A DNA stretch of 21,613 bases from a virus, in the IMG/VR virus record IMGVR_UViG_3300017967_000264, positions 1 through 21,613 of that record; one strand, 5' to 3'. The notes below the pieces were generated by a model. It ran no database searches. It was not told the DNA's origin and worked only from the letters and a program-made list of their open reading frames with translations. The position numbers and the translations under genes are program-made. Position 1 is the stretch's first letter; each line of letters starts with the position of its first letter. Of the stretch, positions 1-19,600 are shown in pieces.

Positions 1-3000
1 ATTTTCACAAGAAATAATAGAACATTCTATAAACTTGGTTTGTTTGTAGGATATAATGACAGAGATCTTGTTGAAGGAACTTTTGGTGTTCCAGGATTCT
101 CCAGGTCATTAGAAGAAGTTTCAATTGGTTCTTCAGTCATCAGTGTAGATTCTACCATTGGATTTGGTCAAACTGGAGAACTTAACGTTAGTGGAAATGT
201 TATAACATATCAAAATAAGAGTATTAATCAATTCTTTGATTGTGTTGGTGTTACCAGTGCGATTTCTCTTGGTGAAGGTGTCAGAGCAAATGAAGTTATC
301 TTCGGTTATGAAAATGGAGATACCAGCAAAAGGGTAGAACTTCGTGTAACTGGAGTACTTTCAGACTTTGAAGCACTTGAAGATATTCCTTTGATGGAAG
401 TTGGTGAGGAAATTTTTGTAAGAAATATTGGGGAAATCATTGAAAACCCAATTGGTGAAAAAACATTCAAAGAATCATTTGCAAATTCTTGGTTGTATAA
501 TACCAGTACAAGACTTGCAGTTGATTCAATTCAAGGTAGTACTTTTATCCTTTCAACTGACGTCATTGATAAATCATTCCTTAAAGTTGGCGATAGTGTT
601 GATATTGTTGTTGGTAGCAGCAATGTTGTTTCTCATCCAAATGCAATCGTTGATAATATTAACTTTGCAAATAGGGAAGTTACATTAACCAACCTGGGAG
701 CATTTGTACCACTTGCTGGCGTTTCTTATTCAATAAGAAGAAATATTGTTAAGGTAACTAGTGCAACATCTAATTTAAAATTAGGAAATGACAAGTACAT
801 TGCAAACACTCTCAACGTCTATACCGATGATAAGAATGAGTATGGATATGTTGCCTCCCATTCTCTGCCAGGATATCAAATCGTAGATGAAATTGTAGAA
901 TCAAAACTATCCGATGGATCTGTAAATAATCTAGAAGAATATGATTCTGCAAAGTTAACTTATAAAACTATTAAGTTCCCATCTGCAGTAAGATTCATTG
1001 ATGGTGATGAGATTGTCTACACTGCAACTAATCCTCTGAAAGGATTGGAGTCTGGTGGTTTTTATTATGTAAAACTTGTAGATACGAATAAAATTCGCGT
1101 ATACTCATCAAAATCAAGAATCAAAGGTGATGAGTATGTAGAGTTGCTTCCTGCAGACAATACTTCAGGTGAGCACATATTCACTCTGAAGCGTCACGAG
1201 AATAGGTTTATATCACAAAATAATATTTTTAGAAAGTTTCCGATTAAACAATCTCTAAGTAGTGTAAAAGAAAGTGATAGAAATATTGGTAATGTTGGAA
1301 TCTTAATCGATGGTGTTGAGATTTCTTCTCCACAATCTAGAGATAAGATTTATTGGGGTCCATTAGAGAAATTTGATGTCCTTAATGGTGGTTCTGGATA
1401 TGATGTAATCAATCCACCAAACATTAGGATAGGAATTGGATCAGGAACTCAGGCATATGTTGAACCTGTAGTTATTGGTAGTGTAAAAGATGTTATTGTA
1501 GACCCACAAAATTTTGATATTGATAATGTTCTTTCTATCAGTCTTTCTGGTGGTAATGGATCTGGATGTGTCTTACAACCAGTTGTTGGTGATAGATTCA
1601 GAGAACTTCTGTTTGACAGTCGTCCAATTAGTCTTGGTGGTGGTGTCGATATTGTTGATGAAACGATTACTTTCAGAGAACCGCATAATTTATTCACAGG
1701 TCAATCTCTAATTTACAATCAGAATGGAAATAATCCAATCAATATTGGAAATGCATATGATACTAATAATATAACTACAGGAACACTTGGTAGTGGTGAT
1801 GAATATGCTATCAGCGTAGTAAATAGCAGCACCATTAAACTGCACAAATCTAGAGCAGAAGCACTTGCAGGAATCAATACTATTGGATTCTCAACTGCAA
1901 CTGCTGCAGCTGGAATTCACAAATTTAGAACTTTATCCAAAAAGAATCTTAGACAGGTAAAAGTTTTAGAATCTGGTTCTGGGTATGCCCACAGAAAATT
2001 AAGAGTTAAGACTGCAGGAGTTTCCACTGCATACAATACTATTGAATTTCCAAATCATGGATTTAAGACTGGTGAGACTGTAACATATTCCAAAGAAACC
2101 TTTGCTGGATTAACAACCACCACTAGTGAAATTTCTATTGTCGGTTTACATACAGAAAATCAATATTCAATATACAAAGTTGATGACAACAGATTTAAAT
2201 TAATCAATGTTGGTGTTTCTGGAACAGTAACAACAGATTTGGTAAGAAACAAGTTTGTAGATTTTGTGGGATTTGGAACCATTGATGGATATCATGTGTT
2301 CAAGTATCCAGAAATTAAAGTAGTTGCAAATGTTTCTTTTGGTGCTACTACTGGAGAGTTTGTATTCACACCAATTGTAACGGGAGAAGTCTCAGATGCA
2401 TATCTTTATGAGACTGGTAGTGGATATGGATCAACTACATTAAACTTACATAGAAAACCAATAATAACTATTGAAACTGGTTCAAATTCACAACTTGCTC
2501 CTATTATCTTAAATGGTAGAATTGCGGATGTACAAGTTCTTAATAAGGGTAATGGTTATGCAGGTCCACCAGAATTAGTTATTGAAGATACATCAACACC
2601 AGGCGGAACTGGTGCCATATTGAGACCCGTCATGGATGGGGATAGACTTTCTGATATTATTGTAATTAATTCTGGTATTGGATATAGTGCAAATTCTACA
2701 AGTATTTTTGTAAAAGAAAGAGGGTTCGGTGCCAAATTTGATACAAGAGTTAGAGATCTTTCTGTAAATGATGCTGAAAGATTTGCAGACTTCTCAAAAT
2801 CCAAAAACACAAAAATATTCTCAAATCTTTACAAGAATGAGAAAGAAGATAGTCTTGTTTATGGAATTTATGGATACTCCGAAGATTTGGCAGAAAATTA
2901 TGAAGAGCTTGGTGGTTCACACTCACCAATCATTGGATGGGCATATGACGGCAATCCAATCTATGGACCATTTGGATACTCTTCACCATCAGATGTTCAG

Positions 3001-6000
3001 TCTGGTGTTAAGATATTAGATACAAGTTATGAACTAAAATCTGCTTCGGTAGAAGATAGACCTCCCAACTTCAAACCTGGTTTCTTCATCGAAGACTACA
3101 GATACACTGGATCTGGAGATTTAGATAGACATAATGGAAGATTCTGCATAACACCAGATTATCCAAATGGAATCTATGCATACTTTGTTGGTGTTACTAC
3201 AAGTGCAACATCACCAGACTTTGAACCAAAGTATCCATACTTTGTTGGAAATACTTACAAGTCGAATATTATTTCTGAGAACTTTACTTTAGATCATACT
3301 TTCGATTTTAATAACTCAAATCTTGTTAGAAATACTTTCCCATATAACATCAATAAAAAGTATGCTGATTACGATTTTATTAATGAAGGATATGAAGTAT
3401 TCAATCAAGCAAGTGTAGTTAAATCTGTTACACAAGGTGAAGTTGATGATGTTAAGGTTATTGAAGGTGGTCTTAACTATGTTATTGGAGACAGAATAAA
3501 TTTTGATATAGAGGGTGCAAATGGTGCTGGTCTTAGAGCAGAAGTTTCTGAACTAGTTGGTGCTGGAATAACTGCTCTTAATACTATTTTAGACTCCTAC
3601 GAATCATGTGTATTTGAGTGGGATAATGAAAATCAAGTTTCTGCATACTTCAGAGATGGATTTGATTTATTGAATAATGATAGAGTTGTTGTTGGCGGTC
3701 TTTCAACATCAATAACTTCTCTGGTTGGAACGTTCAATATTGGATTTACCACATCTATTGTTTCACTTGCTGGAACAATGATTAATTATAGTTCAACCCC
3801 ATATGGAATAGCAGAAGATATTTTTGTTTCTAGAAGTGTAAATGTTTCTACAGGAACAACCGTCGTAATTCATTCCGAACAAGGAAGTGAAACTGCCATT
3901 GTCCTCAATAACTTTGGTAATGGTGTTTTAAAAATTAAAAGACCAGAACCCGCAGGAGTTGCTCATACACTTGGAAGTAGATTAGAAATTAAAGAAAATA
4001 GATTAACTCTTCCAGTTAAAACTCAGAAGTTTACTTCAAGTTTTAATGACATTGTTTATTTCAATGCAAAAAATGCGGTTGGAGTTGGTACAACTTCTGG
4101 TTCTGCAGTTACAAAATCGTTTAATGTTGGAATTACTACAGTAACTGTTTCTATCCCAACACGCCAAATTTACTTACCAAAACATCCATTCAAAACAGGT
4201 CAAAAGGTAACATATACAAATCCACCAAAACCAGGAACTGCACAAATTGTAGTCGGAGCATCCTCTACTGTTGGTGGAACATTCAATCTTTTAGATGGCA
4301 CAGATCTTTATGTCATCAACAAAGGAGAAAATTACATTGGATTAGTTACAACCGTTGGTTTAACTACATCTGGAAATGGTCTTTACTTCCACAGTGATGG
4401 TGATGACCATAATGAATATAAGTTAGTATCCAATAAAGTACAAGTTACTGGAGATGTAAGCAGAATAGTAACAACTGTAAGTTGTGGAACAACTCATGGA
4501 TTAGAGAATGGTGATACTATTAAACTTGTAGTCAAACCAAATACGATTGTTGGATTGGGAACAACTGCTGCTCTTAGAGTAGAGTTCAATCAGGAAGAAA
4601 GAAAACTTTTAATTAATCCAGTAGGTATTAATTCTTCTAATATCAATATTGCTGATAATACAATTACAATCACCGATCATGGATATAGAACTGGTGATAA
4701 AGTTTACTATGAAAGTGTTGAACCAGCGGCTGGTCTTCATACTGGATCATACTATGTAATTAAGGAGTCTTCGGATAAATTTAAAGTTGCAGAAACTTTA
4801 TATGATGCAATTCCCACCACACAAAATGCTGTCAACATTGTTGGAACGGGAGATACAAATCATAGATTCTCTTTGATAAATCCAGAGATTGATGTAGTTA
4901 AAAATAGTGACCTTCAATTTGACTTAAGTCACGAATCTCTTGATGGATTTAAACTTAAGATATTCAGAGAAGGCAATTTTATTAATGAATATACTTCATC
5001 CTATGATGAGAATGGTTTCAATGTAATCGGTGTTGGAACTGTTGGTGTTGGTACAACTGGAATTGCAAACTTAACTATTGAGTATTCTGAAAATATTCCT
5101 GATAGATTATTCTATGCACTAGAAAAATCTGGATATATTAGCACTGCAGATACTGATGTACAAAACTACTCACAGATTAATTACATCAACAGCCCATACA
5201 CTGGAACTTATGATGTATTCGGAGTTGGTAGTACTACATTTAATATTTCTCCAGTACAACTCCCAACAGTTTTAAATTATGTTGACACCCAATGTGATGA
5301 GTTAAAATATACAACAAAATCAAGAACAGCACTCAGTGGTTCAATCGCTAACGTCAATATACTTTCGAAAGGATTTAACTTCGAAAGTCTACCAAAGTTT
5401 AGTGATGTTACATCTGAAGAAGGAACTAATGCAAATATTGCAGCAATTTCAACTTCAATTGGAAGAATCAGAAAAGTAAGATTCAAAGATTTTGGATATG
5501 ATTATCCATCAGATAAGACTTTAAGACCTGAAGCGATTGTCCCCCCAGTTATTTCTATCGACAACCTGGATACTATCACCGATGTCAGTATTCAGTTTGG
5601 TGGCGCAAGATACTTATCAGATCCAGATTTAATTCTGTGGAACGATACCAAGAAACAAATTGTAGATTCAACTACGTTTATTGCTCATGCTCCAAATGGT
5701 GCTATTGCAGAAGTAGAGCAACTTGCTCCTATTTTTGGTCTTGAATCTGAACCACATAAGATAATCGCAATTAATAATTCAAATGGTGTTGGTATTTCTT
5801 CCATGACCAGTGGTGATTCTGGTATTGCAACCTGTATTTTAAATACTCCTATTCTTGGATTTACTAGCAAATTATTTGAACCTGGTGATAGAATCTTTGT
5901 TGAAGGTGTTGAATTAATTCCTGGAACTGGTGAAGGATTTAACTCCGCAGATTATGAGTACAAGTTCTTTGAAGTAACTGAGTACAATGATACCAGTCCA

Positions 6001-9000
6001 GCAGTATTGAAATTTAGACTTGTTGGGGAAGATGGAATTGGTCTTAGTACTAATCCAGGAATCGCAAAGACATTCCAGTCTGGATATGCTACGATTATTA
6101 ACAAATCAAATTATCCAATCATTGATGTAAAGCAAGAGAGAGCTAAATTTACTATCAATGAAAAACTCTTCGTTGATACTGGAACTGGTTTCTTTGATAC
6201 TGATTTGGAAGTTTCTCTTGTAAGAGATGATTATATCAAGATAAGAGGTGATTACAACTTAAGAAAATCTGCAAAGATTAAGGGCATTATAAGTGGAGCA
6301 GTTGCTGAGGTAACAAATGTTGATAGAAAGAGAGCGAAGTTTAACATAAGCTACTCATCTAAAGTTGATTTGGGTTGGAGTAATGATATTGGTAAAATTA
6401 ATGAAGATTACCAAGTAACACCTAACAATGATTATTATCAGAATCTCTCTTATTCAATTAAGAGTCCAATAACATGGGATGAATCATCTGGTCCAGTTAA
6501 CAGCATTATTCACCCTGCTGGTTTGAAAAACTTTGTTGATGTTGGAATTACTTCCGTTGCAACCTCTAGAGCAGGTTTAGGTGGAACAACATCTGCAATC
6601 GTTATCTTAGATGTTGTTAATGAAACTAGAGTTGATACAATTAATAACTTCGATAATGCACTTGATGATAGTCCAAGACAAAGTCCAGTTGGCAATTTCT
6701 TACAATCAAATTCTTTACAGATAGAAAACAGGAAACTTACAGACTTTACTGAGTGTAGAACCAATAGAGTTCTTATTCATGATGATATTAGTCCACAATT
6801 CTCAAGCAAAGGTTTCCAAGATATATTTGTGGAACTTGAAGAAATTGAGTTTTCTGAAAATCACAACAGATATCTTGTTCAGGTTGTAGATCCAGACACT
6901 TCAGACATTCAATTATCCGAACTTGTTCTTCAGTCGACTGCTACAGATACCTTCTTGTTTGAAAAGTATAGTAATTATAGCAATAAGCAACTTGGTTCAT
7001 TCAGAGCAGATACTGATGGATTTGGTAGAAAAACCATAATCTTCGATCCTGTTGACCCATATGAAACTGACCATGATATTAAGATTCTGAAGAAATCATA
7101 CCTTTATCAGGCACTTCCTGGTGGTGTTTCTGGAGTTGGAACACAATCCCTTGGTTCTGTAGATGTTATTGGCACATTCACTGCTGGTATTGGTAGTGTC
7201 GGAACAGCATCAAGTATCAAGACTATTGCAGAATTTGATGCAACCGAATTTAATGGTGCATTTGCAAACATTGAAATTTCCGATAGATTTGGTACAGTAG
7301 TCAACTATGTTGAAGCTGCGATTGACTTTGATGGTTCAGATACTTATTTGAGTGAGTATTATTTCGATGCAACTACTCAGTCCTATAGTTATGTACAAAC
7401 AGGAATTCTTAGTGCAACATATGATTCTAATGCAGGAACTGTATCTCTGACTGCAAGGAACAGTGGAATATCTTCCACAGTTCTGTATGATGTTCGTTCC
7501 AATATTGTTGGATTTGGGACAACAACCGCAGGAATTGGAACATATAGATTCTTATTGAACAACCAACCAGCAGGCACAGAATTAAGTGCTAGATTAGAGT
7601 CTACTGTTGGATTTGGAACAACTGTAGTAAGAATTGGTTCTTATGATATAAATTCAATTTCTGCAGTTAATTCAATTGTTCGGGTTTCTGCTGGTCAGTC
7701 ATCAGCAATACATCAAGTTAACATCCTTGCAAACGATCAAGATTCTGAATTGTTTGTAACTCAAGGACCATTTTCACCAACAAACAATACTACCGGTATT
7801 GGAACCTTTGGTGGAGAAATTATTGGTTCTAACTTCCATTTGAATTTCTATCCAGATTCTGGATATGATGTAGAAACTCAAGCGTTTGGTGAAGTTCTCT
7901 ATAGAGGAATGGATTTTGATAACCAAGCAAATCCACTTGAATATGGTCCTGCTTCTCAATTAGTATTATTATCCGCATTTGACGGTTTAAATGGATTGAG
8001 AGCAAACAGAGTTAACTTCACACTTAAGCATGAAGGTGACCCAATCTATACTAAGATTTTCGATCCTTCAAATACATCCATTATAGATTATGCAACGGGA
8101 ATTTTCAGTTATCCAAATCACTTCTTCAATACTGGTGAAGAATTAATCTATACACCAGAAGCAACATTTGTTGGTGTTGGCAAATCTGCAATGGGTATTG
8201 GTAGCACTGAAAACTATCTTGGTATTGTTACTGATAGACTTCCAGAAAGAGTTTATCCAATTGCACTTACTCCAGATACTTTCCAATTAGCAACTAAACC
8301 AGAATGGGCAAGAGAAGCTGCTTCATCTGCTGGAGTGAGTGGAAATGTTGGTATTGCTATCACATTTACTGATGCTGGACTTGGAAATTCTCATGAACTT
8401 GAATTTACTAAGAAGTTGACAAAGACTGTTGTTGCACTTGACGGTATCGTGCAGCAACCAATTGCCTTTACGCCAATCAACCATCTGTTAGAAAACAACA
8501 ATGGAGGTATTACTGCTGGTATTTCAACTTTCAATCTTAGTGGTATTTCTTCGGTTCAACCAAGAGACCTTCTTAGAATTGATGATGAATACATGAAGGT
8601 TGTTGAAGTTGGACTTAGCACTAATGTTAATGGTCAACTTCTTGGTCCAATCAATGGAATTATTGCTGCAGGTGCTGCTGCAACATACCCAACTGTATCT
8701 GTTGTTCGCGGAATCGTTGGTTCTGCAGCAACTACTCACACTGATGGCGCAGAGGTCAGAATTTACAGAGGTGCAATTAACATTGTTAAGAATGAAATCT
8801 TCTTCGTTGATCCTCCAAAAGGAAACTCTAGAGCAAGAAGAAATTCTTCAAATCTTCCTTATGTTAAGGCAGAATACACTGGCAGAACCTTCTTGAGATC
8901 GAATTATGATACCAATATGCTCTTCGATGATATTTCGGATAGTTTCACTGGTATTGCTAAAACCTACACTACAACCATTGAAGGAATCAATACTTCTGGT

Positions 9001-12000
9001 GTTCAACCTGGTAATGGAATCCTGTTCATTAATGGTGTTTTCCAGACACCATCAACTCTCAACAACGCTGGAAACAATTATGTTTTCGAGAGAGACACCT
9101 CTGCAGGTATTTCTAGTGTTGTATTTACTGGTATCACTTCAACCAATGGTCTTCCCATTCAATCTGAGTTTGATATCAACCAGAATCAGATTCCAAGAGG
9201 TGGTTTGGTAGTTTCCCTTGGTTCGACACCTGGTCTTGGTTATGCACCTCTTGTAGGTGCTGTGGTTAAGGCAGAAAAAGATTCTTCTGGAACTATCACA
9301 GATATTGTTGGCATCAATACTTGGACTAGACCTGTTTCTATAAGCACGGCAACGTATAATAAGATTTCTGGAATTCTTGAGGTTGAAACTGTTGAACCAC
9401 ACAATCTTAGAAATGGTGATAGTGTAAAATTAGTTGGTCTCGCATTTACCTGCCCAAGTGGTTCTGGTATTACAACTACAATCTTCCCAGATCATGATCG
9501 CGCTCTTGCATTGTTTAATGTTGTTGATGCAAACAAAGTCAATGTTCTTGTTGGACCAAGCACAATTACACATTACTACACGGGTGATGGTGAAATTTAT
9601 AGACATTATAATTTAAATTTCGGTTCTGGATATAGATCACCAGTTTCTATCGCAGTTACTGATAGAGCATATGAGCATAGATTTGTAAGAGCAGGTATAA
9701 ATTCAACTTTTGATGGTAGTGGTAACACCTATTCAATCACTAATGCTAAATTCACTTCACATACAGGTGAACTTCAAGTAACAATTGATGGACATGGATT
9801 AACAACTGCAGATACTGTTGGATTCGATACTGGTTCAATCGTATTCAGATGTTCTGATGATGATTTCTTCACAGAACAAGTTTATCCAAGACCTACAGAT
9901 CCAGCAGCAGGAGTTAATCTTTCCATTGCTTCTACGACAGTAAACACTTTAACTGTTAATGTTGGTCCAGCTGGTGGTGGTGGAACGGGTGCTGTTGTTG
10001 AGGCAGTAGTCGGTGCTGGAGGAACTTTGGCACTCAATATTGTTAATGGTGGTACTGGATATATCAATCCTATTATTGAGATTCCAGAACCAAATTATGA
10101 AAATATGCCTGTTACTGGTGTTTCTAGACTTGGTGTTGGTGCTACAACGGAGACTGGTAAGAACTTACTTCTCAACTTGACAGTTGGTGCCGCTGGCACA
10201 AGTAATGTCGGTATTGGTTCAACATTATTCTCAATTGAGTCATTCAAGATTGCTAGAAATGGATATGGATTCCAACCTGGAGATGTTGTAAAAGTTGTTG
10301 GTCTTGTTACTGCTAAGGATTATACTGCACCAATTGCCGATTTCCAAGTTGAAATCACACAAACCTTCAATGATTTCTTCTCATCTTGGTCATTCGGTGA
10401 AATGGATTACATTGATAGTATTGCTGGTTATCAAGACGGAAATAGAAAGAGATTCCCACTCTTCTATAATGGTGAATTGTTAGCATTTGAAATTGATCCA
10501 GCAGCAAGACTTTCTAGCGCAATTGATTTAGATGCAGTTCTTGTTATCTTTGTAAACGGTGTTCTTCAAACTCCAGGATATGCATACCAGTTCCTTGGAG
10601 GAACATCATTTACGTTTACTGAGGCACCAAAGGTTAACGACAGAGTAGATATTTTCTTCTATGTCGGTCAGAATGGAATTGACGTTGGAATTACGACAGT
10701 TAGAGAAACTATTAAAGTTGGTGATGATGTTTTTGTTAGAAGACATCCAGGTCTTCCACTAACTGTAGACCAAATTGAGCAAAGAACTATCTCAGAAATT
10801 CTTGGTTCTGATACAGTTGAAACTGCAATTTACACTGGTCCTGGTGTAAATCAAAATGATTTCAAACCATTCTATTGGACAAAGCAGAAGAAAGACAAGT
10901 TTGTAAAGGGTGATGTTATTTACAAAACCAGAGCATCCCTTGAACCAAGAATTTTCCCAACTGCAAAGGTTATTGGTGATGTTAACACTAATAGTGATCA
11001 AATATTCGTTGATAATGCACAGTTCTTTGATTATGACGAAGTCATCTATGATTTGAATATCAATACATTTGAATTTGATGCCTTTATGGTGGATTCTTTT
11101 GAACCAGTATCTGCTGCGTTTACTGCTACAGTCAGTGCTGCTGGAACTGTTACATCTATTCAAATTCTTGATGGTGGTAGTGGATATACTGGATCTACGG
11201 TTGACCTCAAATTCTCTGCACCAAGAGTTATTGGTGTTGGAGTTGGAACAACGGCAACAGGAACTGCAACCGTTGGAACTGGTGGATCAATCACATCAGT
11301 AACACTGACTAACCCAGGAATGGGTTATACAAATGCTACAAACCAGGCAATTGTACCTCAAATTATTACAGAAGTTCCTACTGCAATCAGAGAAACTATT
11401 GGTGGTATTTCAAATGTTCAAGGATTTACTGGAATTATTACTGGTATTGGAGAAACAACCAACGGTAGTGGTCAAAAAGCAATTAAATTCTTCTTCTCGG
11501 CATTAAAAGATTACACTCCTTCTGGAGAATCTGAACTTGCATCTGATGCTTTAGATTTACAAGTAGGATATCCAATCATTGTTTCAAATACTAAGGTTGG
11601 ACATGGAGTAACTTCCGTATATGATTCTGATAATGCAGTTGTTTCCATTGGAACAACATTCCTTGATAACATCTATATTGTTGATTCAATCTTCAGTGTT
11701 GGACCAATTGGAGTCCTGACTTGTAATGTTCACAATGCAACTAATTTAACTGGCATTGGTTCAACAGGAAACTTTGACGAATATAATGCAGGTCTTACAA
11801 CTTCTCTTGGAACATTCTCTTGGGGAAGGATATACAACTTCAACCAAAGAACCAATCCAATTTCAATTGGTGTTACTGGATTGACAATTGATTCTGGTTT
11901 ATCTACATTCCCAACAATTCAAAGAAGAGGCAATTTTGGTGAGTCTAAGACTGGAGCAGTTCGTTCCAGAAAACCAATTGCGGATCCAAATATTGTACAG

Positions 12001-12027
12001 GACAATATTTTACCGTTCTATCCATAA
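1..12027 (+). CDS. Giant YHYH-domain virion structural protein, probable baseplate wedge component in the gene 7 slot (5' end missing)
   Basis: The frame is open from base 1 to the TAA at 12025-12027, giving at least 4008 residues. The first possible start in the window, TTG at 40, lies in uninterrupted coding sequence, so the true start is upstream. Residues below count from base 1. About 954-1088 form a YHYH-family domain. Residues from about 320 to 3280 carry recurrent beta-type modules: H-x-(tG)D-x-V-x-Y units and GGSGY units. Near 2810-3560 there are repeated 'NGV-QTP' modules. A C-terminal block (about 3449-3670) and the terminal FSWGRI region resemble cyanophage structural proteins I know. 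No signal peptide or membrane segment is evident in the part seen. The next gene is gp8; in T4 gene 7 precedes gene 8, and cyanophages lack a gp7 recognisable by sequence. A gp7-like wedge role is therefore inference from position; a long fibre or host-contact protein is the alternative. Structural protein is confident; exact role is not. Confidence 0.85.
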   Translation: MFTRNNRTFYKLGLFVGYNDRDLVEGTFGVPGFSRSLEEVSIGSSVISVDSTIGFGQTGELNVSGNVITYQNKSINQFFDCVGVTSAISLGEGVRANEVIFGYENGDTSKRVELRVTGVLSDFEALEDIPLMEVGEEIFVRNIGEIIENPIGEKTFKESFANSWLYNTSTRLAVDSIQGSTFILSTDVIDKSFLKVGDSVDIVVGSSNVVSHPNAIVDNINFANREVTLTNLGAFVPLAGVSYSIRRNIVKVTSATSNLKLGNDKYIANTLNVYTDDKNEYGYVASHSLPGYQIVDEIVESKLSDGSVNNLEEYDSAKLTYKTIKFPSAVRFIDGDEIVYTATNPLKGLESGGFYYVKLVDTNKIRVYSSKSRIKGDEYVELLPADNTSGEHIFTLKRHENRFISQNNIFRKFPIKQSLSSVKESDRNIGNVGILIDGVEISSPQSRDKIYWGPLEKFDVLNGGSGYDVINPPNIRIGIGSGTQAYVEPVVIGSVKDVIVDPQNFDIDNVLSISLSGGNGSGCVLQPVVGDRFRELLFDSRPISLGGGVDIVDETITFREPHNLFTGQSLIYNQNGNNPINIGNAYDTNNITTGTLGSGDEYAISVVNSSTIKLHKSRAEALAGINTIGFSTATAAAGIHKFRTLSKKNLRQVKVLESGSGYAHRKLRVKTAGVSTAYNTIEFPNHGFKTGETVTYSKETFAGLTTTTSEISIVGLHTENQYSIYKVDDNRFKLINVGVSGTVTTDLVRNKFVDFVGFGTIDGYHVFKYPEIKVVANVSFGATTGEFVFTPIVTGEVSDAYLYETGSGYGSTTLNLHRKPIITIETGSNSQLAPIILNGRIADVQVLNKGNGYAGPPELVIEDTSTPGGTGAILRPVMDGDRLSDIIVINSGIGYSANSTSIFVKERGFGAKFDTRVRDLSVNDAERFADFSKSKNTKIFSNLYKNEKEDSLVYGIYGYSEDLAENYEELGGSHSPIIGWAYDGNPIYGPFGYSSPSDVQSGVKILDTSYELKSASVEDRPPNFKPGFFIEDYRYTGSGDLDRHNGRFCITPDYPNGIYAYFVGVTTSATSPDFEPKYPYFVGNTYKSNIISENFTLDHTFDFNNSNLVRNTFPYNINKKYADYDFINEGYEVFNQASVVKSVTQGEVDDVKVIEGGLNYVIGDRINFDIEGANGAGLRAEVSELVGAGITALNTILDSYESCVFEWDNENQVSAYFRDGFDLLNNDRVVVGGLSTSITSLVGTFNIGFTTSIVSLAGTMINYSSTPYGIAEDIFVSRSVNVSTGTTVVIHSEQGSETAIVLNNFGNGVLKIKRPEPAGVAHTLGSRLEIKENRLTLPVKTQKFTSSFNDIVYFNAKNAVGVGTTSGSAVTKSFNVGITTVTVSIPTRQIYLPKHPFKTGQKVTYTNPPKPGTAQIVVGASSTVGGTFNLLDGTDLYVINKGENYIGLVTTVGLTTSGNGLYFHSDGDDHNEYKLVSNKVQVTGDVSRIVTTVSCGTTHGLENGDTIKLVVKPNTIVGLGTTAALRVEFNQEERKLLINPVGINSSNINIADNTITITDHGYRTGDKVYYESVEPAAGLHTGSYYVIKESSDKFKVAETLYDAIPTTQNAVNIVGTGDTNHRFSLINPEIDVVKNSDLQFDLSHESLDGFKLKIFREGNFINEYTSSYDENGFNVIGVGTVGVGTTGIANLTIEYSENIPDRLFYALEKSGYISTADTDVQNYSQINYINSPYTGTYDVFGVGSTTFNISPVQLPTVLNYVDTQCDELKYTTKSRTALSGSIANVNILSKGFNFESLPKFSDVTSEEGTNANIAAISTSIGRIRKVRFKDFGYDYPSDKTLRPEAIVPPVISIDNLDTITDVSIQFGGARYLSDPDLILWNDTKKQIVDSTTFIAHAPNGAIAEVEQLAPIFGLESEPHKIIAINNSNGVGISSMTSGDSGIATCILNTPILGFTSKLFEPGDRIFVEGVELIPGTGEGFNSADYEYKFFEVTEYNDTSPAVLKFRLVGEDGIGLSTNPGIAKTFQSGYATIINKSNYPIIDVKQERAKFTINEKLFVDTGTGFFDTDLEVSLVRDDYIKIRGDYNLRKSAKIKGIISGAVAEVTNVDRKRAKFNISYSSKVDLGWSNDIGKINEDYQVTPNNDYYQNLSYSIKSPITWDESSGPVNSIIHPAGLKNFVDVGITSVATSRAGLGGTTSAIVILDVVNETRVDTINNFDNALDDSPRQSPVGNFLQSNSLQIENRKLTDFTECRTNRVLIHDDISPQFSSKGFQDIFVELEEIEFSENHNRYLVQVVDPDTSDIQLSELVLQSTATDTFLFEKYSNYSNKQLGSFRADTDGFGRKTIIFDPVDPYETDHDIKILKKSYLYQALPGGVSGVGTQSLGSVDVIGTFTAGIGSVGTASSIKTIAEFDATEFNGAFANIEISDRFGTVVNYVEAAIDFDGSDTYLSEYYFDATTQSYSYVQTGILSATYDSNAGTVSLTARNSGISSTVLYDVRSNIVGFGTTTAGIGTYRFLLNNQPAGTELSARLESTVGFGTTVVRIGSYDINSISAVNSIVRVSAGQSSAIHQVNILANDQDSELFVTQGPFSPTNNTTGIGTFGGEIIGSNFHLNFYPDSGYDVETQAFGEVLYRGMDFDNQANPLEYGPASQLVLLSAFDGLNGLRANRVNFTLKHEGDPIYTKIFDPSNTSIIDYATGIFSYPNHFFNTGEELIYTPEATFVGVGKSAMGIGSTENYLGIVTDRLPERVYPIALTPDTFQLATKPEWAREAASSAGVSGNVGIAITFTDAGLGNSHELEFTKKLTKTVVALDGIVQQPIAFTPINHLLENNNGGITAGISTFNLSGISSVQPRDLLRIDDEYMKVVEVGLSTNVNGQLLGPINGIIAAGAAATYPTVSVVRGIVGSAATTHTDGAEVRIYRGAINIVKNEIFFVDPPKGNSRARRNSSNLPYVKAEYTGRTFLRSNYDTNMLFDDISDSFTGIAKTYTTTIEGINTSGVQPGNGILFINGVFQTPSTLNNAGNNYVFERDTSAGISSVVFTGITSTNGLPIQSEFDINQNQIPRGGLVVSLGSTPGLGYAPLVGAVVKAEKDSSGTITDIVGINTWTRPVSISTATYNKISGILEVETVEPHNLRNGDSVKLVGLAFTCPSGSGITTTIFPDHDRALALFNVVDANKVNVLVGPSTITHYYTGDGEIYRHYNLNFGSGYRSPVSIAVTDRAYEHRFVRAGINSTFDGSGNTYSITNAKFTSHTGELQVTIDGHGLTTADTVGFDTGSIVFRCSDDDFFTEQVYPRPTDPAAGVNLSIASTTVNTLTVNVGPAGGGGTGAVVEAVVGAGGTLALNIVNGGTGYINPIIEIPEPNYENMPVTGVSRLGVGATTETGKNLLLNLTVGAAGTSNVGIGSTLFSIESFKIARNGYGFQPGDVVKVVGLVTAKDYTAPIADFQVEITQTFNDFFSSWSFGEMDYIDSIAGYQDGNRKRFPLFYNGELLAFEIDPAARLSSAIDLDAVLVIFVNGVLQTPGYAYQFLGGTSFTFTEAPKVNDRVDIFFYVGQNGIDVGITTVRETIKVGDDVFVRRHPGLPLTVDQIEQRTISEILGSDTVETAIYTGPGVNQNDFKPFYWTKQKKDKFVKGDVIYKTRASLEPRIFPTAKVIGDVNTNSDQIFVDNAQFFDYDEVIYDLNINTFEFDAFMVDSFEPVSAAFTATVSAAGTVTSIQILDGGSGYTGSTVDLKFSAPRVIGVGVGTTATGTATVGTGGSITSVTLTNPGMGYTNATNQAIVPQIITEVPTAIRETIGGISNVQGFTGIITGIGETTNGSGQKAIKFFFSALKDYTPSGESELASDALDLQVGYPIIVSNTKVGHGVTSVYDSDNAVVSIGTTFLDNIYIVDSIFSVGPIGVLTCNVHNATNLTGIGSTGNFDEYNAGLTTSLGTFSWGRIYNFNQRTNPISIGVTGLTIDSGLSTFPTIQRRGNFGESKTGAVRSRKPIADPNIVQDNILPFYP
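970..9855 (+). repeat. Divergent protein-level repeats of the H-x-(tG)D-x-V-x-Y type (at least 8 units)
   Basis: Units share a His-containing turn, then a Gly-Asp/Glu pair, then V-x-Y. Most are followed by a 'YYV...dn-f-l' strand pair. Visible copies lie at about 970-1126, 1663-1875, 2038-2223, 4162-4345, 4462-4555, 4648-4860, 8092-8300, 9361-9550 and a weak one at 9754-9855. The clearest cores are HGFKTGETVTY, HPFKTGQKVTY and HGYRTGDKVYY. Copies are diverged in DNA, so this is old duplication of a beta domain rather than recent slippage. The function is probably scaffold or stalk; this is inference. Confidence 0.7.
2860..3264 (+). other. YHYH-family domain inside the giant protein
   Basis: The signature GWAYDGNPIYGPFGY is encoded at 2935-2979 and is preceded by a His (2920). 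It is followed by a GDLDRHNGRFC segment and by NGIYAYF (YAYF at 3175-3186) where the family's eponymous YHYH would stand. This fits the YHYH family (Pfam PF14240), whose function is not established. Both His of the eponymous motif are replaced (Ala and Phe), so a metal site built on those residues would not be intact. The domain is an island among repeats and may be a surface or binding module. Confidence 0.85.
10345..11010 (+). other. Conserved C-terminal block of the giant protein (NGVLQTP / tail-periphery type)
   Basis: The block opens with a 'QTFNDFFSSWSFGEMD' segment. It continues through an 'NGELLAFEI' strand, 'AVLVIFVNGVLQTPGYAYQF' (10534-10593), 'FTEAPK' and 'DRVDIFFYVGQNGIDV', and then the 'KVGDDVF' and 'QRTISEI' segments. 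I recognise this order from large structural proteins of marine T4-like cyanophages; no function is assigned to it. Related but partial NGV-QTP modules occur earlier in the same protein, at about 8428 and 9013. Confidence 0.65.
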
Positions 12028-12033
12028 TAAATA
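12026..12033 (+). promoter_or_regulatory. Putative T4-type late promoter box upstream of gp8
   Basis: AATAAATA differs from the T4 late consensus TATAAATA at one base and contains the ATAAATA core used in cyanomyoviruses. It overlaps the TAA stop of the giant gene by two bases and lies 17 bases before the gp8 ATG. Transcription would then start roughly at 12039, leaving a very short A-rich leader with no clear Shine-Dalgarno. The position in the only gap between the two genes supports it; an AT-rich chance match is the alternative. Confidence 0.55.
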
Positions 12034-12050
12034 CATAAAAAAAGATAACG

Positions 12051-13610
12051 ATGTCAGCACTTGTTACTGATCAATTTAGGATTTTGAATGCCAGTAATTT
12101 TGTAGATTCTGTTGGAGATACTTCCAACGCATATTACATTACTGTTGGTCTTCCCAATCCAACTATTGTTGGATATGGTAGGAGCAATACGTGGAACACA
12201 AATCCACCAGCACCTATTGATAACCTTGCATATAATAAGCATACTGGCGATGTTACGTTATATGGTAGAAGAGTTTCTTCTTCTAATGTAAGAAGGTTGG
12301 CTAGAAAAATTGAATGGACATCGGGTTCAAAATATGAGATGTATAGACACGATTACAGTGTCTTAAATCCATCTCCATTAACAAATGCATCAAGATTGTA
12401 TGATGCAAATTATTATGTAATTAACTCAGATTATAGAGTTTATATTTGTATTGAAAATGGTTCTAGTGGAGACAACCCAAAAGGTAATAACTCCCAGGAC
12501 GAACCAAGATTTACTGATTTAGAACCATCCAGAGCAGGTGATAGTGGAGATGGATATATCTGGAAGTATCTGTTTACAATTAGTCCAAGTGATATTATTA
12601 AGTTTGATTCTATTGAATATATTACAGTTCCAAATGATTGGGCAACATCAACCGATTCACAGATAAGAGCAGTTAGAGAATCTGCAGATTCTTCTATTAA
12701 TGAAAATCAAATCAAAACTGTTTATATCCAAGACCAAGGAGCAAATTATGCTAATGGTTTAGGGCAAGAGGTTGATATTATTGGTGATGGCACTGGAGGA
12801 AAAGTAAGAGTTGATGTTGTTGGTGGTAAGATTACAAATACTGTAGTCACTTCAGGTGGTAAAGATTATAGTTATGCAATGGTTGATTTGGGTTCTATCA
12901 ACTCAAATACCACAGGAACTAGTGCACATCTGATTCCTATCATTCCCCCATCAAAGGGACATGGATATGATATTTACAATGAATTAGGAACCGACAAGGT
13001 TTTAGTTTATGCAAGATTTGATGATAGTGATAAAGACTTCCCAACAGATACAAGTTTTGCTCAGGTTTCTATCGTTAAAAATCCAACACAAGTTGGAACT
13101 AGCGATATCTACAAAGCAAACAATTTTAATGGTTTGAATGCATTTAAGTTCCAGACAGTGACTGGAACACCAAAGGTTGGAGAAAAGATTTTCCAGAGAG
13201 TTCAGCAAAATACTGCTAGAGCATTTGGTTATGTTGCTTCTTATGACCAAGATACAAAGGTTTTGAAGTATTTTTCAGATAGATCTTTGTTCTTGAATCA
13301 AACAACTCTTGATACTCAAGATTATACTGGCATCTCTACCAATGGTAGAAGATACAACTTTGAATCTTCCAGTGAATTAATCACAGGGACCACTTCTTCA
13401 TTTACTGGTTCAATTGATACCACATTTAGTGGTTTCACTGTAAACCCAACAGGAACAAAGTTAATTAACCTCGGGGTCAACTTCACCGGTGGCACTGCAG
13501 TTTCTGAAATAAATAAAGGCTCAGGGGATATTATATACCTTGATAACAGAGCCAGCATTGCTAGGAACGCACGCCAAAAAGAAGATTTAAAAATTATACT
13601 GGAATTCTAA
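12051..13610 (+). CDS. gp8: Baseplate wedge subunit gp8
   Basis: This is a T4 gp8 homologue; gp8 is a wedge protein that in T4 dimerises and binds gp7 and gp6 in the baseplate. Matching landmarks in order are an N-terminal 'VTDQFRI...YYITVGLPNP' segment, GDGYIWKYLF at residues 166-175 (T4 has GDGYVWEYLF), then YITVPNDW. Next come QVSIVKNPT near 338-346 and the C-terminal 'GDIIYLDNR...LKIILEF' from about 491, against 'GEMIYMENR...INILFTF' in T4. At 519 aa it is about 185 residues longer than T4 gp8. The excess falls in two places: about 220-275, with two GGSGY-like units, and about 345-488, with a GE-I module. The ATG at 12051 starts at the conserved N-terminus. No strong ribosome site is visible. 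The stop is 3 bases before the next ATG, so the two genes are probably cotranscribed. Confidence 0.93.
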   Translation: MSALVTDQFRILNASNFVDSVGDTSNAYYITVGLPNPTIVGYGRSNTWNTNPPAPIDNLAYNKHTGDVTLYGRRVSSSNVRRLARKIEWTSGSKYEMYRHDYSVLNPSPLTNASRLYDANYYVINSDYRVYICIENGSSGDNPKGNNSQDEPRFTDLEPSRAGDSGDGYIWKYLFTISPSDIIKFDSIEYITVPNDWATSTDSQIRAVRESADSSINENQIKTVYIQDQGANYANGLGQEVDIIGDGTGGKVRVDVVGGKITNTVVTSGGKDYSYAMVDLGSINSNTTGTSAHLIPIIPPSKGHGYDIYNELGTDKVLVYARFDDSDKDFPTDTSFAQVSIVKNPTQVGTSDIYKANNFNGLNAFKFQTVTGTPKVGEKIFQRVQQNTARAFGYVASYDQDTKVLKYFSDRSLFLNQTTLDTQDYTGISTNGRRYNFESSSELITGTTSSFTGSIDTTFSGFTVNPTGTKLINLGVNFTGGTAVSEINKGSGDIIYLDNRASIARNARQKEDLKIILEF

Positions 13611-13613
13611 AAA

Positions 13614-16600
13614 ATGCCACAGAAGACGAACCTCAACGTAAGCCCTTATTATGATGATTTTGATAAGGACAAGAATTTTTATAAGGTCTTATTTAAACCA
13701 GGGTATCCTGTTCAGGCAAGAGAATTAACTGGTCTTCAGTCAATCCTCCAGAATCAGATAGAATCCTTTGGCAGCCACATGTTCAAAGAAGGTTCTATGG
13801 TTATTCCTGGTGGAATTACCTGTGATAATCAATTTACGACAATTAAAGTCAATCCAAATCATTTAGGCATTGATATTACTGTCTATCTTGACGCATTGTC
13901 TTCTGGATCTAATGGTAAAGGAACAAAGGTAATCGGTCAAGATTCTAAAGTTGTTGGTAATATTAGTGGATATATACTTCCACCAACTTTAGATGTAGAA
14001 GATATTACAGTTTTTGTCAAGTATCGCGATAGTGCTGAAGATGGGGAAAGTGTAGAATTTCAGGATGGTGAAGTTTTAATCCTTGATGAAAACCTCACAT
14101 ATGGCAACACAACCCTTGTTGAGGGTGATACGGTACTTACCCTTAAAGGAACTGAAGCAACGCAGACAGGATATGCTGTAGGTGTTGCAGAGGGCGTTTA
14201 CTTTATCAGAGGTACCTTTGTAGATGTCCAAAAACAAAGAATTGTTTTGGATCCATATGACAATGAACCATCATTTAGAGTTGGATTTGATGTCGTAGAA
14301 GAAATTATAAACTCAGATGAAGATGAATCCCTGAATGATAATGCAAAAGGATTCACAAACTATTCTGCACCAGGTGCAGATAGATTAAAAATTAGTGTAA
14401 AATTAGCCAAAAAGCAACTAACTGATACTGATGACGTCAACTTCATCGAATTAGTTAAAATTGATCAAGGAGAAATTAAAAAACTCCAAAATCAGTCAGA
14501 TTACAACATAATCAAAGATTATTTCGCAAAGAGAACTTTTGAAGAATCTGGTGACTATGCCATTGATAATTTTATCGTAGAAACATCAGAGTGTTTAAAC
14601 GATGAAAAGGGAAATGGTGGATTATTTAAGTATGATGAAGTAACTGAGCAAGGAAATACTCCCTCAGAAAATTTGGTTTCTGTTAAAGTTTCTGCAGGAA
14701 CTGCTTACGTTAGGGGTTATGATATTGATTTAGTTGGATCTACTGTCCTTGATGTTGAAAAACCAAGAACAACCAAATCAGTTGCAACTGCAGCAGTCCC
14801 ATTTGCAATGGGAAGTTTATTGAAAGTCAATAATACGGCAGGTGTGCCATACATTAACATTGGCGACAGTGACGCTGGCGGTGCAAATAGCACTAATGGC
14901 AATATCATTTCTTTATATAAAGAAAGAAGAAATAACACTGGTATTACTAATATTTCTGATGCAGCAACAGCAGGTCTGAACACCAAAATTGGTGAGGCAA
15001 GAGTTTATTGGTATGGTCTTGCAGATGATACTTATAAAAATGCTGCTACTCAATTTGATCTGTACTTATTTGATATTCAAACTTATACAGTTTTAACATT
15101 AGCAAATACTTACAATACTAATGATGTTCCAGATACCTCTATTGTTAGAGGTCTTTCAAGTGGAGCAACTGGATTTATTAGCACAAGAAGCACTAATGTC
15201 TATAGTTTAACACAAACTTCAGGAGAGTTTCTTGTTGGTGAGCAAGTTATTATCAATGAGCAAGTAAAATATCAAACTGGTATCAATGCAATCACAGTAT
15301 ACACTACTGAAGATATTAAAGGTATTTTCCAAGATTGCCCATCATTGAACAGCAACATCCAAACTCCTTTTGTTGCAGATACTGTTCTTTATCCTAAGCC
15401 CCTCCCACAATTTGCAATAACAGACCAACTGACGCTTTCTGGTTCTGGTGCAACAAAAACAGGTATAGTTGGTGGAAGATTCTTTAGCGGTGTAACTGGA
15501 ATCAAACTCGGAAGAACTATCAAATATCAGAATGGAAATGCTGATCCAATTTATGCAGATATTAGTGCAATTTCTGCAGATGGAACAAGTATTAGTCTGA
15601 CTGTACCAACAACTGCAGTTCCTGGTGTTTATAGAGCAACGCATGGTGCCAATGCAAATTATAATTTCCGTTTGATGGTTCCAAGAATCATCAATGCAGG
15701 ATCAACAGGTCTTTATTCTCCTATGCCTGTTGAAAATATTGCATCTGTTGACTTAGCAAACTCAAGTTTATTCATAACAAAGCAAATTACACATCCAAGT
15801 TTTAGTGGAAATGGATTTGAACTCGCTGTAGGTGATGCAATTAGTGCAAGTGCTGGAATTACTAGTGTATTCTATACACCATTTGATGCAGAAAGATATG
15901 CAATTGTTTATTCTGATGGTTCAACAGAAAAACTGACTTCTGGTAAAGTTACTTTAGGTCCTGGTGGAAACACAGTTACCTTTAGTGGTTTAGATAAAGC
16001 ATCAGATTCAAATACAACTGTTATTGTAACATTAGACAAGAGAAATGTTACTAATAAAACTAAGGACTATATCAGAAGTAATTCTATCACTATTGATAGA
16101 ACTTCAAAAACAAATGCATTAGGTGGTTTAACTACCAGTTCATACTATGGAACAAGAATTGATGATAGGGAAATATCTTTGAATGTTCCAGATGTTATGG
16201 AAGTATGTGCAGTTTATGAATCGACGGATGAAAATGCACCAATTCTTGATAAACTCACATTTGCTACAGGTTCAAATCTGAATACAGAAGCAATTGTTGG
16301 TGAAAAGATATTCGGTGAAGAAAGTAGAGCAATTGGTTATGTATATGAAAGAACATCAAATACAATATCCTTTGTTTCAAAAAATACAAACAATTTCTCC
16401 GTTGGCGAAACCGTTAATTTTGAAAAATCTGCAGTTTCTCTAGTTGTCCAAGAGGTAACTAAAGGAAGTTATGTAGATTTGACTGCCAATTATAGATTAG
16501 ATACAGGTCATAGACATGATCTTTGTGATTATTCTAGAATTATTAGAAGACCTGGAAGTCCAACTCCAAGCAGGAAGTTGTTGGTAATTTATGATGCATA

Positions 16601-19600
16601 TGAAGTTGGATCTGATAATAATGGAGATTTCTTCACTGTAAATTCTTACTCAGCAGATAGATTTAAGAGTGATATTCCAACATTGCCAAGCGGTCTTAGA
16701 GTAACAAATACAATTGATTTTAGACCAAGAGTTAAGCATTTTACATCAACAACTACTTCGCCTTTTGCATTCTCATCAAGACAATACGATTCTACTTACA
16801 GATATGTAATTTCTCCAGATGAAAGTTCTTATGTTGGATACTCTTATTATCTTCCAAGAATTGATTTAGTCTCTATCAATAGATTGGGAGAAGTTGAAGT
16901 AATCCAAGGAGAACCTGCAGATATTCCACAAGCACCTGTGCTTGCTGATGATGCAATGGAAATCGCATCAATTAGTTATCCTCCATATCTTTTCAACCCA
17001 GATTCTGATCCACAGATTCTTCTGAGAGATAATAGAAGATTCACAATGCGTGATATTGGAAAGCTTGAAGATAGGATTGAAACTCTTGAAGAATTGACGA
17101 GTCTTACTATGCTCGAATTGAGCACAAAGTCTCTCTCAGTTACTGATGCTAACGGATTAGATAGATTTAAGTCTGGATTTATTGTTTCTGATTTTAGAGA
17201 TAAGTCATTGGCAGATCCACGTCTGACAACTATTGATATTAGTAAGGAGGGTGCAACTGCAATCGCACCTGTTGATATCTGGTCAATGGATGCAGAATTA
17301 GCATTTGATCCAAATATTAATATTCAAACCGCAGATTTGAGTCAAAACTTAAGACTTCAGGATACAAATATCCAGAAATCTGGTGATATGCTTACGTTAA
17401 AGTATGAAGAAGTTGAATGGTTAAATCAACCTCATGCAACTCATGTTGAAAATGTTAATCCATTTGAAGTTGTTGCTTTTGTTGGTGGTGTTGTTTTAGA
17501 TCCAGCATCAGATAATTGGGTCAGAACAATCTATATCAATGATCAAAGAACAGAATCAACTGGTGCAAAGTGGAAGCAACAGGCAAAAGTAACTAAGAAA
17601 GTTGACAAAAAAGTTCGTTTTGAACGTTACAAGAAGGGTGGAAATAGAGGTGAAACTGGAAGAAGAAAGTATGTAACAACAACTATTACGACAAAAACAA
17701 AATACACACCAAAACTTACAGGTCCATCAAGAGAATTTAATTATGTTGAAGATGTGAAAATATCTGGAGATGCAGATCCATGGATGCGTGAGAGAAATGT
17801 TTACTTTGCTGCTAATGGATTGAGACCATTTACAAAGCACTATCACTATCTTGATAGTCAGCAGGTTGACATTATACCAAAACTTTGTGAAATCAATATG
17901 ATTTCTGGAACTTTCCAAGTTTATGAAGGAGCTGATGTTTTCGATTCAACTGGAAAGAAAATTGGTTTTATGAGAATTGTAAAACCAAATCATAAGTTTG
18001 GTGATACTACCAGACCAGATATTGGTGCTGGTCTTGGTTCTCCATCAGTTCTTGTTGAGAAATATAGTGTAGATCCATATGATAGAACTAGACCAGCTCC
18101 AGGCGAGTTATATTCTCCAACATCAAAACTGATTAATTTTGGCGTTAGAGCTTTAGCTAATTGGCAGAAGTTCTATGGGTATGTGGAAAAAGGTGCTAAG
18201 GTAGTTGGACAAAGTTCTGGTGCTGTTGCTACAATCACAAGAGCAGAACTTATTTCTGATAACTGGGGAGATATCATTGCAAACTTCTACTTCAGAAACC
18301 CAAATAGCAATCCATTACCACCAGTAAGGGTTAAGAGTGGTACAAAAACTGTTAAAATTACTGCTGTTCCACCCAATACATTTGTTCTTCCTGGTTCAAA
18401 GAGATTTGCATCGGAAGCAATTGGAACATATAGTGGTTCTGGAACAATCTTAACTCAGGAGACAACCCGAGTTTCTGTAAGAAATCCACCCAAACCTGCA
18501 GCAAAACCAACAGAAATCCAGCGTAAAGTAAAAGCACCTCATAGAGATCCATTAGCACAATCATTTACTGTTGATGGTAAGGGCATATTCTTAACTTCTT
18601 TTGACTTGTTCTTTGCTTCTAAAGATCCAGATTCAAAAATATTTGTTGAACTGAGGACTATGGAATTGGGAACACCAACTCAGTACTTAGTCCAAGATTA
18701 CACTCAAGTTGCACTTAATCCAGATCAAATCAATGTATCTCAGGATGCAAGTGTTCCAACTAGAATTAGTTTCCCATCTCCAGTTTATCTTGAGGCGGAT
18801 AAAGAATATGCAATTGTTGTTCTTGCTCCAGCATCAATTAATTATGAGATGTTTATTGCAAGAATGGGTGGCAAAACGCTGAAAACAACCAATCTTCCTG
18901 ATGTACAAAATGTTGTCGTTAGTAAGCAGTATATTGGTGGTTCATTATTTAAATCCCAAAATGGAACTATTTGGACACCAAGTCAATATGAAGATTTGAC
19001 TTTCAAACTTTATAAAGCAAAGTTTGTAAGTTCTGGAACTGTAACATGGCATAACTCCGATATTACACCAAAAGGTACTAATAGTGCTTCTTTGAATAAC
19101 AACCCAGTTGAAGGTCTTCCAAGAAAAATTAAAGTAGCAATTACTGGAACATTAAACAGTAATGTTGTACTTGGAACTAAGGTTGCTGAAGGAGCAACTG
19201 CACCAAGTGTCAGTGGATTTGTTGAAAATCTTGGTGCTGCAGCAGCCACTGTAGAAATTACCGATGGTGGTTCTGGATATCTTGCATCGCAAACTGGAAT
19301 CACAAATGTAAACTTGTTCTCACTTACTGGAAGTGGAACTGGTGCAGTAGCAACAATTAATACTGATGCAGATGGTAAAGTTTCTAGTGTGACTCTTACC
19401 TCTAACGGTTCTGGTTTTGTTGAAGGTGAAACAGTTGGAATTACAACATCAAGTATTGGTACGACCGCACAGCAACAAGGTTCTGGTGCTAAGGTTACAA
19501 TCAAAACAATCAATGCTTCGACAGATACGCTTTATCTAACTGATGTTCAGGGTGATAACTTTAGTGCCGCATCTTCAGTTTATTACTTGACAGATGCAAA

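Follow-up and report, generated by a model that had tools for sequence, protein, structure and literature searches.

The IMG/VR viral record IMGVR_UViG_3300017967_000264 is a fragment of a marine T4-like phage, and its 21613 bases were analysed as a whole (the window). Three adjacent genes in the window carry copies of one small repeat unit with a glycine-rich turn of the GGSGY type. These three long genes, namely a giant gene in the gp7 position, gp8 and a DUF4815 gene, follow the order found in marine T4-like phages (Table 1), and Pfam and PHROGs agree on all three. The order in P-SSM2 is gp25, gp6, gp7, gp8 and then a gene without a name. The window gp8 shares 63% identity with P-SSM2 gp8, matches the gp8 profile PF09215 (E 2.8e-14, 53 bits against a cut-off of 25) and aligns well with the T4 gp8 structure. 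The DUF4815 profile PF16075 reaches 188 bits in the window against a cut-off of 30. For the giant gene the name "gp7" is a mere label; T4 gp7 is reported to be absent from these phages, with VrlC in its stead (PMC7029224, excerpt).

The unit comprises approximately 40-50 residues, arranged as a strand, a G.GY turn, a second strand, a G.GtGA segment and a third strand, and is often paired. AlphaFold2 models of gp8 and of a piece of the giant protein both show three strands per unit. At an independent E-value (i-E) below 0.01, a hidden Markov model (HMM) of 98 units, whose training set consists in part of these window units, detects ten copies in the giant gene and two each in gp8 and the DUF4815 gene. 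It has no match at E <= 1 in 2016 reversed open reading frames (ORFs), some of which are listed twice. A first-pass annotation of the window had placed GGSGY-type units in the three genes. Its translations are right (LNGGSGY at 1381-1401, IQDQGANY at 12726-12749, TSGGKDY at 12849-12869, TDGGSGY at 19260-19280 and SNGSGF at 19401-19418), but the literal GGSGY occurs only three times, at 1387, 11173 and 19266, with GGTGY at 10048, and gp8 has only the degenerate forms GANY and GKDY. Scans with Pfam and with NCBIfam, the latter covering gp14, the fibre, gp5, the giant protein and gp8, gave no family covering the unit, and no title on this repeat was found in the literature searched.

Table 1. Genes and repeat units of the window. 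Unit residues of gp8 and the DUF4815 gene follow the genes' own numbering; ORF numbering is 4 (gp8) or 1 (DUF4815) residues higher. Unit i-E values are from the unit HMM. pLDDT, predicted local distance difference test.
Feature	Residues, motif	Position	Strand	Evidence and remarks
Giant gene, gp7 position		1..12027	+	5' end cut by contig; phrog_2885 baseplate wedge subunit; YHYH PF14240; P-SSM2 counterpart annotated gp7
gp8 baseplate wedge gene		12051..13610	+	PF09215; phrog_438; T4 gp8 structure Z 12.6 over 147 residues
DUF4815 gene		13614..21029	+	PF16075 E 3e-55; phrog_358; some counterparts annotated VrlC or VriC
Giant gene unit	453-496, GGSGY	1357..1488	+	i-E 5e-9
Giant gene unit	650-690, GSGY	1948..2070	+	i-E 0.0023
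Giant gene unit	792-841	2374..2523	+	i-E 1e-6
Giant gene unit	838-880	2512..2640	+	i-E 9e-9; hhalign with gp8_218 7e-8, with gp8_258 9e-5; modelled, pLDDT mostly about 90
Giant gene unit	882-924	2644..2772	+	i-E 5e-4; modelled, low pLDDT in last part of unit
Giant gene unit, 3' of YHYH domain	1145-1191	3433..3573	+	i-E 3e-4
Giant gene unit, degenerate	1780-1823, GFNF	5338..5469	+	i-E 2e-6
Giant gene unit	3335-3383, GGTGY	10003..10149	+	i-E 1e-4
Giant gene C-terminal pair, unit 1	3710-3762, GGSGY	11128..11286	+	i-E 1e-6; giant_3701 with gp14_301 1.7e-12, with duf_1851 5e-9
Giant gene C-terminal pair, unit 2	3757-3800 (HMM match to 3815)	11269..11400	+	i-E 4e-4
gp8 unit 1	217-263, GANY	12699..12839	+	i-E 2.5e-7; modelled strands 224-228, 236-245, 250-257
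gp8 unit 2	257-301, GKDY	12819..12953	+	i-E 3.2e-7; modelled strands 260-268, 276-278, 293-296
DUF4815 gene unit 1	1879-1925, GGSGY	19248..19388	+	i-E 7e-5; hhalign
DUF4815 gene unit 2	1919-1969, NGSGF	19368..19520	+	i-E 1.4e-7; hhalign

Similarity between the genes can be measured without shared training by hhalign of 100-residue segments of the three proteins, with profiles built from orthologues of each segment's own gene only. Residues 201-300 of gp8, compared with 128 segments of the giant and DUF4815 proteins, gave five rows below 1e-3. The best four are unit segments (giant_801 2.6e-8, duf_1851 7.6e-7, giant_851 1.3e-6 and duf_1901 1.7e-5) and the fifth, with giant_3051, covers nine columns. 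Five control segments of gp8, one of them containing part of unit 2, gave 0 of 640 rows at this level. From the DUF4815 side, residues 1851-1950 gave nine rows below 1e-3 against 89 segments, all of them unit segments (giant_3701 5.1e-9, gp8_201 6.8e-7), and residues 1901-2000 gave eight, again all unit segments; eight control segments of this protein gave 3 of 712. The best cross-gene similarities extend over 50-65 columns and are therefore no coincidence of a short motif. By this statistical measure of homology the units of the three genes are one shared module, and the earlier claim of a single repeat in three adjacent, otherwise unrelated genes is borne out by both the unit profile and the orthologue-only comparison.

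The module is also carried by genes far from these three. An HMM built from giant-gene units only was applied to 837 ORFs in sections of four genomes: P-SSM2 except 50001-60000, S-CAM9 40001-90000, HTVC008M 1-100000 of 147284 and T4 72001-122000. Seven ORFs matched at E < 0.01, all of them virion genes and none from the T4 stretch. From P-SSM2 these are the gp7-position gene, the neck gene gp14, a tail fibre gene and the gp5 hub lysozyme, from S-CAM9 the gp7-position gene and gp14, and from HTVC008M the gp7-position gene. Of the seven, only the P-SSM2 giant gene had been used for training. On the P-SSM2 genome the start of gp14 is 3.9 kb beyond the DUF4815 gene and the fibre gene 115 kb beyond it; gp5 precedes gp7 by 61 kb. 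The strongest cross-gene match by hhalign joins residues 301-400 of gp14 with residues 3701-3800 of the giant protein (Table 1), and gp14 segments starting at 1, 51 and 101 gave 0 of 414 rows below 1e-3.

Four unit blocks of the window matched 16, 15, 8 and 7 PHROGs families at E <= 0.1, mostly of baseplate, neck, fibre and other virion proteins; the gp7-type, gp8, gp14 and fibre families were matched by all four blocks and gp5 by two. Foldseek of the giant-protein piece in BFVD returned 30 rows at E <= 0.001, of which the named ones are phage proteins, many structural, including proteins of Stenotrophomonas phage Mendera and Agrobacterium phage Atu_ph07. With tblastn, the S-CAM9 gp14 block matched 337 phage records named Synechococcus, Cyanophage, Prochlorococcus or Marine, two Agrobacterium phages excepted, and the DUF4815 pair matched 12 records, some within gp8 of S-CAM9-type phages. 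The C-terminal pair of the giant gene had no tblastn match among phages at 0.01, and plasmids had no match to the S-CAM9 gp14 block. Among solved structures, phmmer with one S-CAM9 gp14 block gave rows at chance level (best E 0.1), and Foldseek of the giant-protein piece against the PDB gave no row below E 1. A search of genome contigs led to one locus, at 2369-4855 of a contig from a bacterial metagenome-assembled genome (MAG), whose protein has LamG, immunoglobulin (Ig) and GGSGY-type units; the DNA may be of phage or host origin.

The place of the module is mostly kept within genes across distant phages. An alignment of ten gp8 proteins has the two-unit stretch at the same position in each of the nine non-T4 sequences (the window, P-SSM2, S-CAM9, syn9, S-PM2, MA01, HTVC008M, Stenotrophomonas phage Marzo and Agrobacterium phage OLIVR6), and the unit HMM supports it in seven of the nine at E <= 2.1e-4, with one unit only in HTVC008M. 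T4 gp8 has a short stretch at this place and an HMM E-value of 55, in keeping with the first-pass statement that it has no units. The further statement that the gp8 units form an insertion is right in that the stretch is missing from T4 at that place, but it is an insertion only relative to T4, and T4 may equally have lost the module. In the DUF4815 gene, 51 of 82 aligned rows span the block and 32 of these 51 have an HMM E-value below 1e-3. S-PM2, MA01 and OLIVR6 have DUF4815 units as well by the unit HMM, and HTVC008M has 12 residues at the place of the block.

A tree of the units was built from 98 units over 47 columns, with five chosen orthologues for each position (90 in all) and 8 additional rows. 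Eleven of the 18 unit positions hold together across phages and five fall apart; the remaining two hold together once the S-CAM9 row is set aside. In all 200 bootstrap trees the units of every gene are split over more than one clade. A tree in which the twelve gp8 units form one group is rejected by the approximately unbiased (AU) test, which was applied to gp8 only (p-AU 0.0286), and the well-supported branches alone force no more than one origin for the gp8 units. At the profile level, giant unit 838 is nearest to both gp8 units, so that gp8 unit 1 is closer to it (7e-8) than to gp8 unit 2 (8e-4); the DUF4815 units are nearest to each other. Copies of a gene are thus not mutually closest throughout. 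Mean identity of the window units is 30% between genes (44 pairs) and 31% within genes (47 pairs). No DNA repeat joins two genes with E below 0.03; the lowest E-value, 0.032, belongs to a 59-bp repeat (76%) whose two ends fall outside units, and between units of two genes the best repeat is 17 bp long (E 0.11). Two pairs of units inside the giant gene reach E 0.003. Since identity between genes equals that within genes and strong cross-gene DNA repeats are lacking, the spread between genes appears to be old.

The models suggest that a pair of units folds like domain I of the T4 sheath protein gp18 (PF22639; PDB 3foa, 3j2m), a six-stranded beta-barrel. The gp8 model has a mean pLDDT of 60, mostly 70-90 within the module; the model of the giant-protein piece is confident at approximately residues 45-120, with six strands in the confident part. 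Residues 222-300 of the gp8 model align with residues 99-188 of gp18 at Z 5.4, a value below 8 and under the level at which the tool advises trust (72-74 residues, root-mean-square deviation (rmsd) 2.8-3.1, 18-22% identity). The KP1 sheath reaches Z 4.7, and gp18 is outranked by gp8 structures and by a tail chain of an archaeal virus (Z 6.4). The unit HMM, in which gp18 was not included, ranks gp18 first among 84 T4 ORFs (E 0.0057, the next being 0.76) with a match at approximately residues 101-120, the start of domain I; this first half of the domain reads GNIDYTISTPGSNYAVGD. As with the modules of the window, domain I is a pair-sized beta insertion in a virion protein, although T4 carries it on the sheath whereas the window phage has its units in baseplate genes, and the sheaths of P-SSM2 and HTVC008M have no PF22639 match. 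Domain I protrudes, binds the baseplate and the retracted fibres, and takes no part in inter-subunit contacts according to an excerpt of PMC3004832, and fibre retraction is inhibited in the gp18 mutants G106S, S175F and A178V (same excerpt). The three mutant letters fit the T4 ORF only without the initial methionine, which places G106 at the glycine of the GSNY turn. In the second half of the domain, gp18 residues 148-154 read GKNYAKA in the T4 record; the NY is present in 0 of 20 aligned relatives and is either a variant or an error of the record.

Several results speak against the likeness to gp18. When all 837 ORFs are ranked, gp18 (E 0.057) stands behind two ORFs not known as virion genes (0.031 and 0.037). 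The Pfam profile Gp18_dom_I (PF22639) has no match in the window at E <= 10, nor in the four unit blocks, and hhalign with domain I is weak and not clean, with 1.4e-4 for the best unit segment and 3.5e-4 for a gp8 segment without a unit. In the structure comparisons, gp18 is among the VIA-align rows of the gp8 model only, being found neither for the giant-protein piece nor among the Foldseek PDB rows shown. The bolder proposal is that domain I and the GGSGY pairs represent a single docking module by common descent within the T4 superfamily, carried on the sheath by T4 and on baseplate, neck, hub and fibres by marine phages, with the G.GY turn as the contact that catches retracted fibres. We regard this as possible, with the odds clearly against it; if it were true, moving the module would move the parking place of the fibres on the virion.

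The explanation favoured here, with a probability of roughly 0.65, is that an old accessory beta-module came to be scattered across virion proteins and has since been passed on largely at fixed places, with an outward docking or adhesion surface suggested by the gp18 likeness. One small module recurs in T4-like virion proteins, in three genes of the window and, in relatives, in gp14, gp5 and tail fibres. Early duplications or insertions would have carried it from one virion gene to another, and since then it would mostly have stayed in place, recent exchange between neighbours not being seen. If the pairs do the same work as gp18 domain I, those on gp8, VrlC, the gp7-position protein and gp14 would be outward docking faces for fibres or appendages. 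A weak hold on surface glycans could replace docking; weak glycan binding has been proposed for Ig-like additional sheath domains (PMC9230969, excerpt), and the MAG protein with LamG, Ig and units fits a surface role. Recruitment for a shared outer surface, as the first-pass annotation had suggested, is plausible in view of the likeness to domain I of gp18.

A number of observations weigh against this explanation. Seven giant-protein segments at the 5' end had fewer than ten sequences each in the hhalign comparison, and both gp8 and the DUF4815 protein were missed by the single-unit HMM built from the giant gene only. Outside the module the gp8 model is of poor quality. The unit HMM gives no gp8 module in S-PM2 (E 110) or MA01 (E 0.3), where the module is read from the alignment alone; the same holds for 16 of the 51 spanning DUF4815 rows, S-CAM9 included, which fall short of 0.05 with an aligned stretch of similar length. 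The gp14 segments starting at 351 and 401, which lie where the units end or beyond, gave weak rows below 1e-3 (15 and 7 of 138), and the DUF4815 block missed its own gene's family in PHROGs at E <= 0.1. In the tree, 34 of 95 forks are open, the bootstrap is not settled, the deep order is open and 7 of the 18 positions are not fully together.

The strongest competing explanation is that the module merely fills or stiffens contacts in the baseplate and neck, with no docking or glycan contact. The carriers are indeed baseplate, neck and hub proteins, and additional sheath domains have been suggested to confer stability (PMC9230969, excerpt). However, the nearest solved likeness, gp18 domain I, binds fibres and lies outside the inter-subunit contacts in the description cited above, and the MAG locus has LamG and Ig domains in the same protein. 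We consider such a purely structural role unlikely, though a serious contender. Convergence, in which glycine-rich beta turns recur by selection for stable strands and have no common ancestry, would suit a short motif, an identity of approximately 30% and the simple composition of beta-rich virion proteins. It is improbable, as the matches extend up to 50-65 columns in one order (turn, strand, GtGA, strand, G turn, strand), while other segments rarely match and reversed ORFs do not. Least probable of all is the first-pass proposal that modules moved between neighbouring baseplate genes by recombination, which can point to close partners (gp8_218 with giant_838, duf_1874 with giant_3710 at 2e-6), to the rejection of a single gp8 clade and to a best between-gene pair in the window of 54% identity over 37 aligned residues, but which was replaced because the carriers are dispersed as far as gp14, gp5 and the tail fibre, with gp14 in the strongest cross-gene match, the place in gp8 is kept in distant phages and no DNA repeat with E below 0.03 connects two genes, repeats of E 0.003 being confined to the giant gene.

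The dispersed module can be compared with other accessory domains of phages. Ig-like accessory domains are likewise small beta bodies added outside the core of virion proteins, for which roles in adhesion, as appendages and in stability have been proposed (PMC9230969, excerpt). Unlike these, the body in the window is built of repeats with G.GY turns. Neither the three window proteins (E <= 1) nor the four unit blocks (E <= 10) matched an Ig family in Pfam, and the best VIA-align row of the giant-protein piece with an Ig domain has only Z 4.9 (rmsd 4.0, 75 residues). The carbohydrate-binding modules in neck and tail proteins of 936 lactococcal phages (PMC6669499, excerpt) are similar bricks; binding has been shown there, whereas the marine unit is known from sequence and models. 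The giant virion proteins of marine T4-like phages contain much sequence with no named domain, part of which would be explained by the repeat module, and the possible link to gp18 domain I is testable since mutants of that domain have a phenotype. A shared module may also explain annotation labels that were transferred through it. The gp7-position gene of HTVC008M, at 33435-36485, is annotated as head closure Hc2, and this label was probably transferred through the shared unit.

Two further features were observed in these proteins. A second short motif, GE.i.G..SGA.A.v, seems to recur at approximately 2090-2115 of the giant protein, 1525-1590 of the DUF4815 protein, 376-410 of gp8 and in the C-terminal part of P-SSM2 gp14; hhalign rows with this motif join duf_1501, a control segment, with giant_2051 (4e-5) and gp14_351 with gp8_351 (1.9e-5). 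The YHYH domain (PF14240) of the giant protein, at 2872-3204 of the window (residues 958-1068), lies between the units at 882 and 1145 and is predicted to be a metal-dependent hydrolase (PMC7824862, excerpt).

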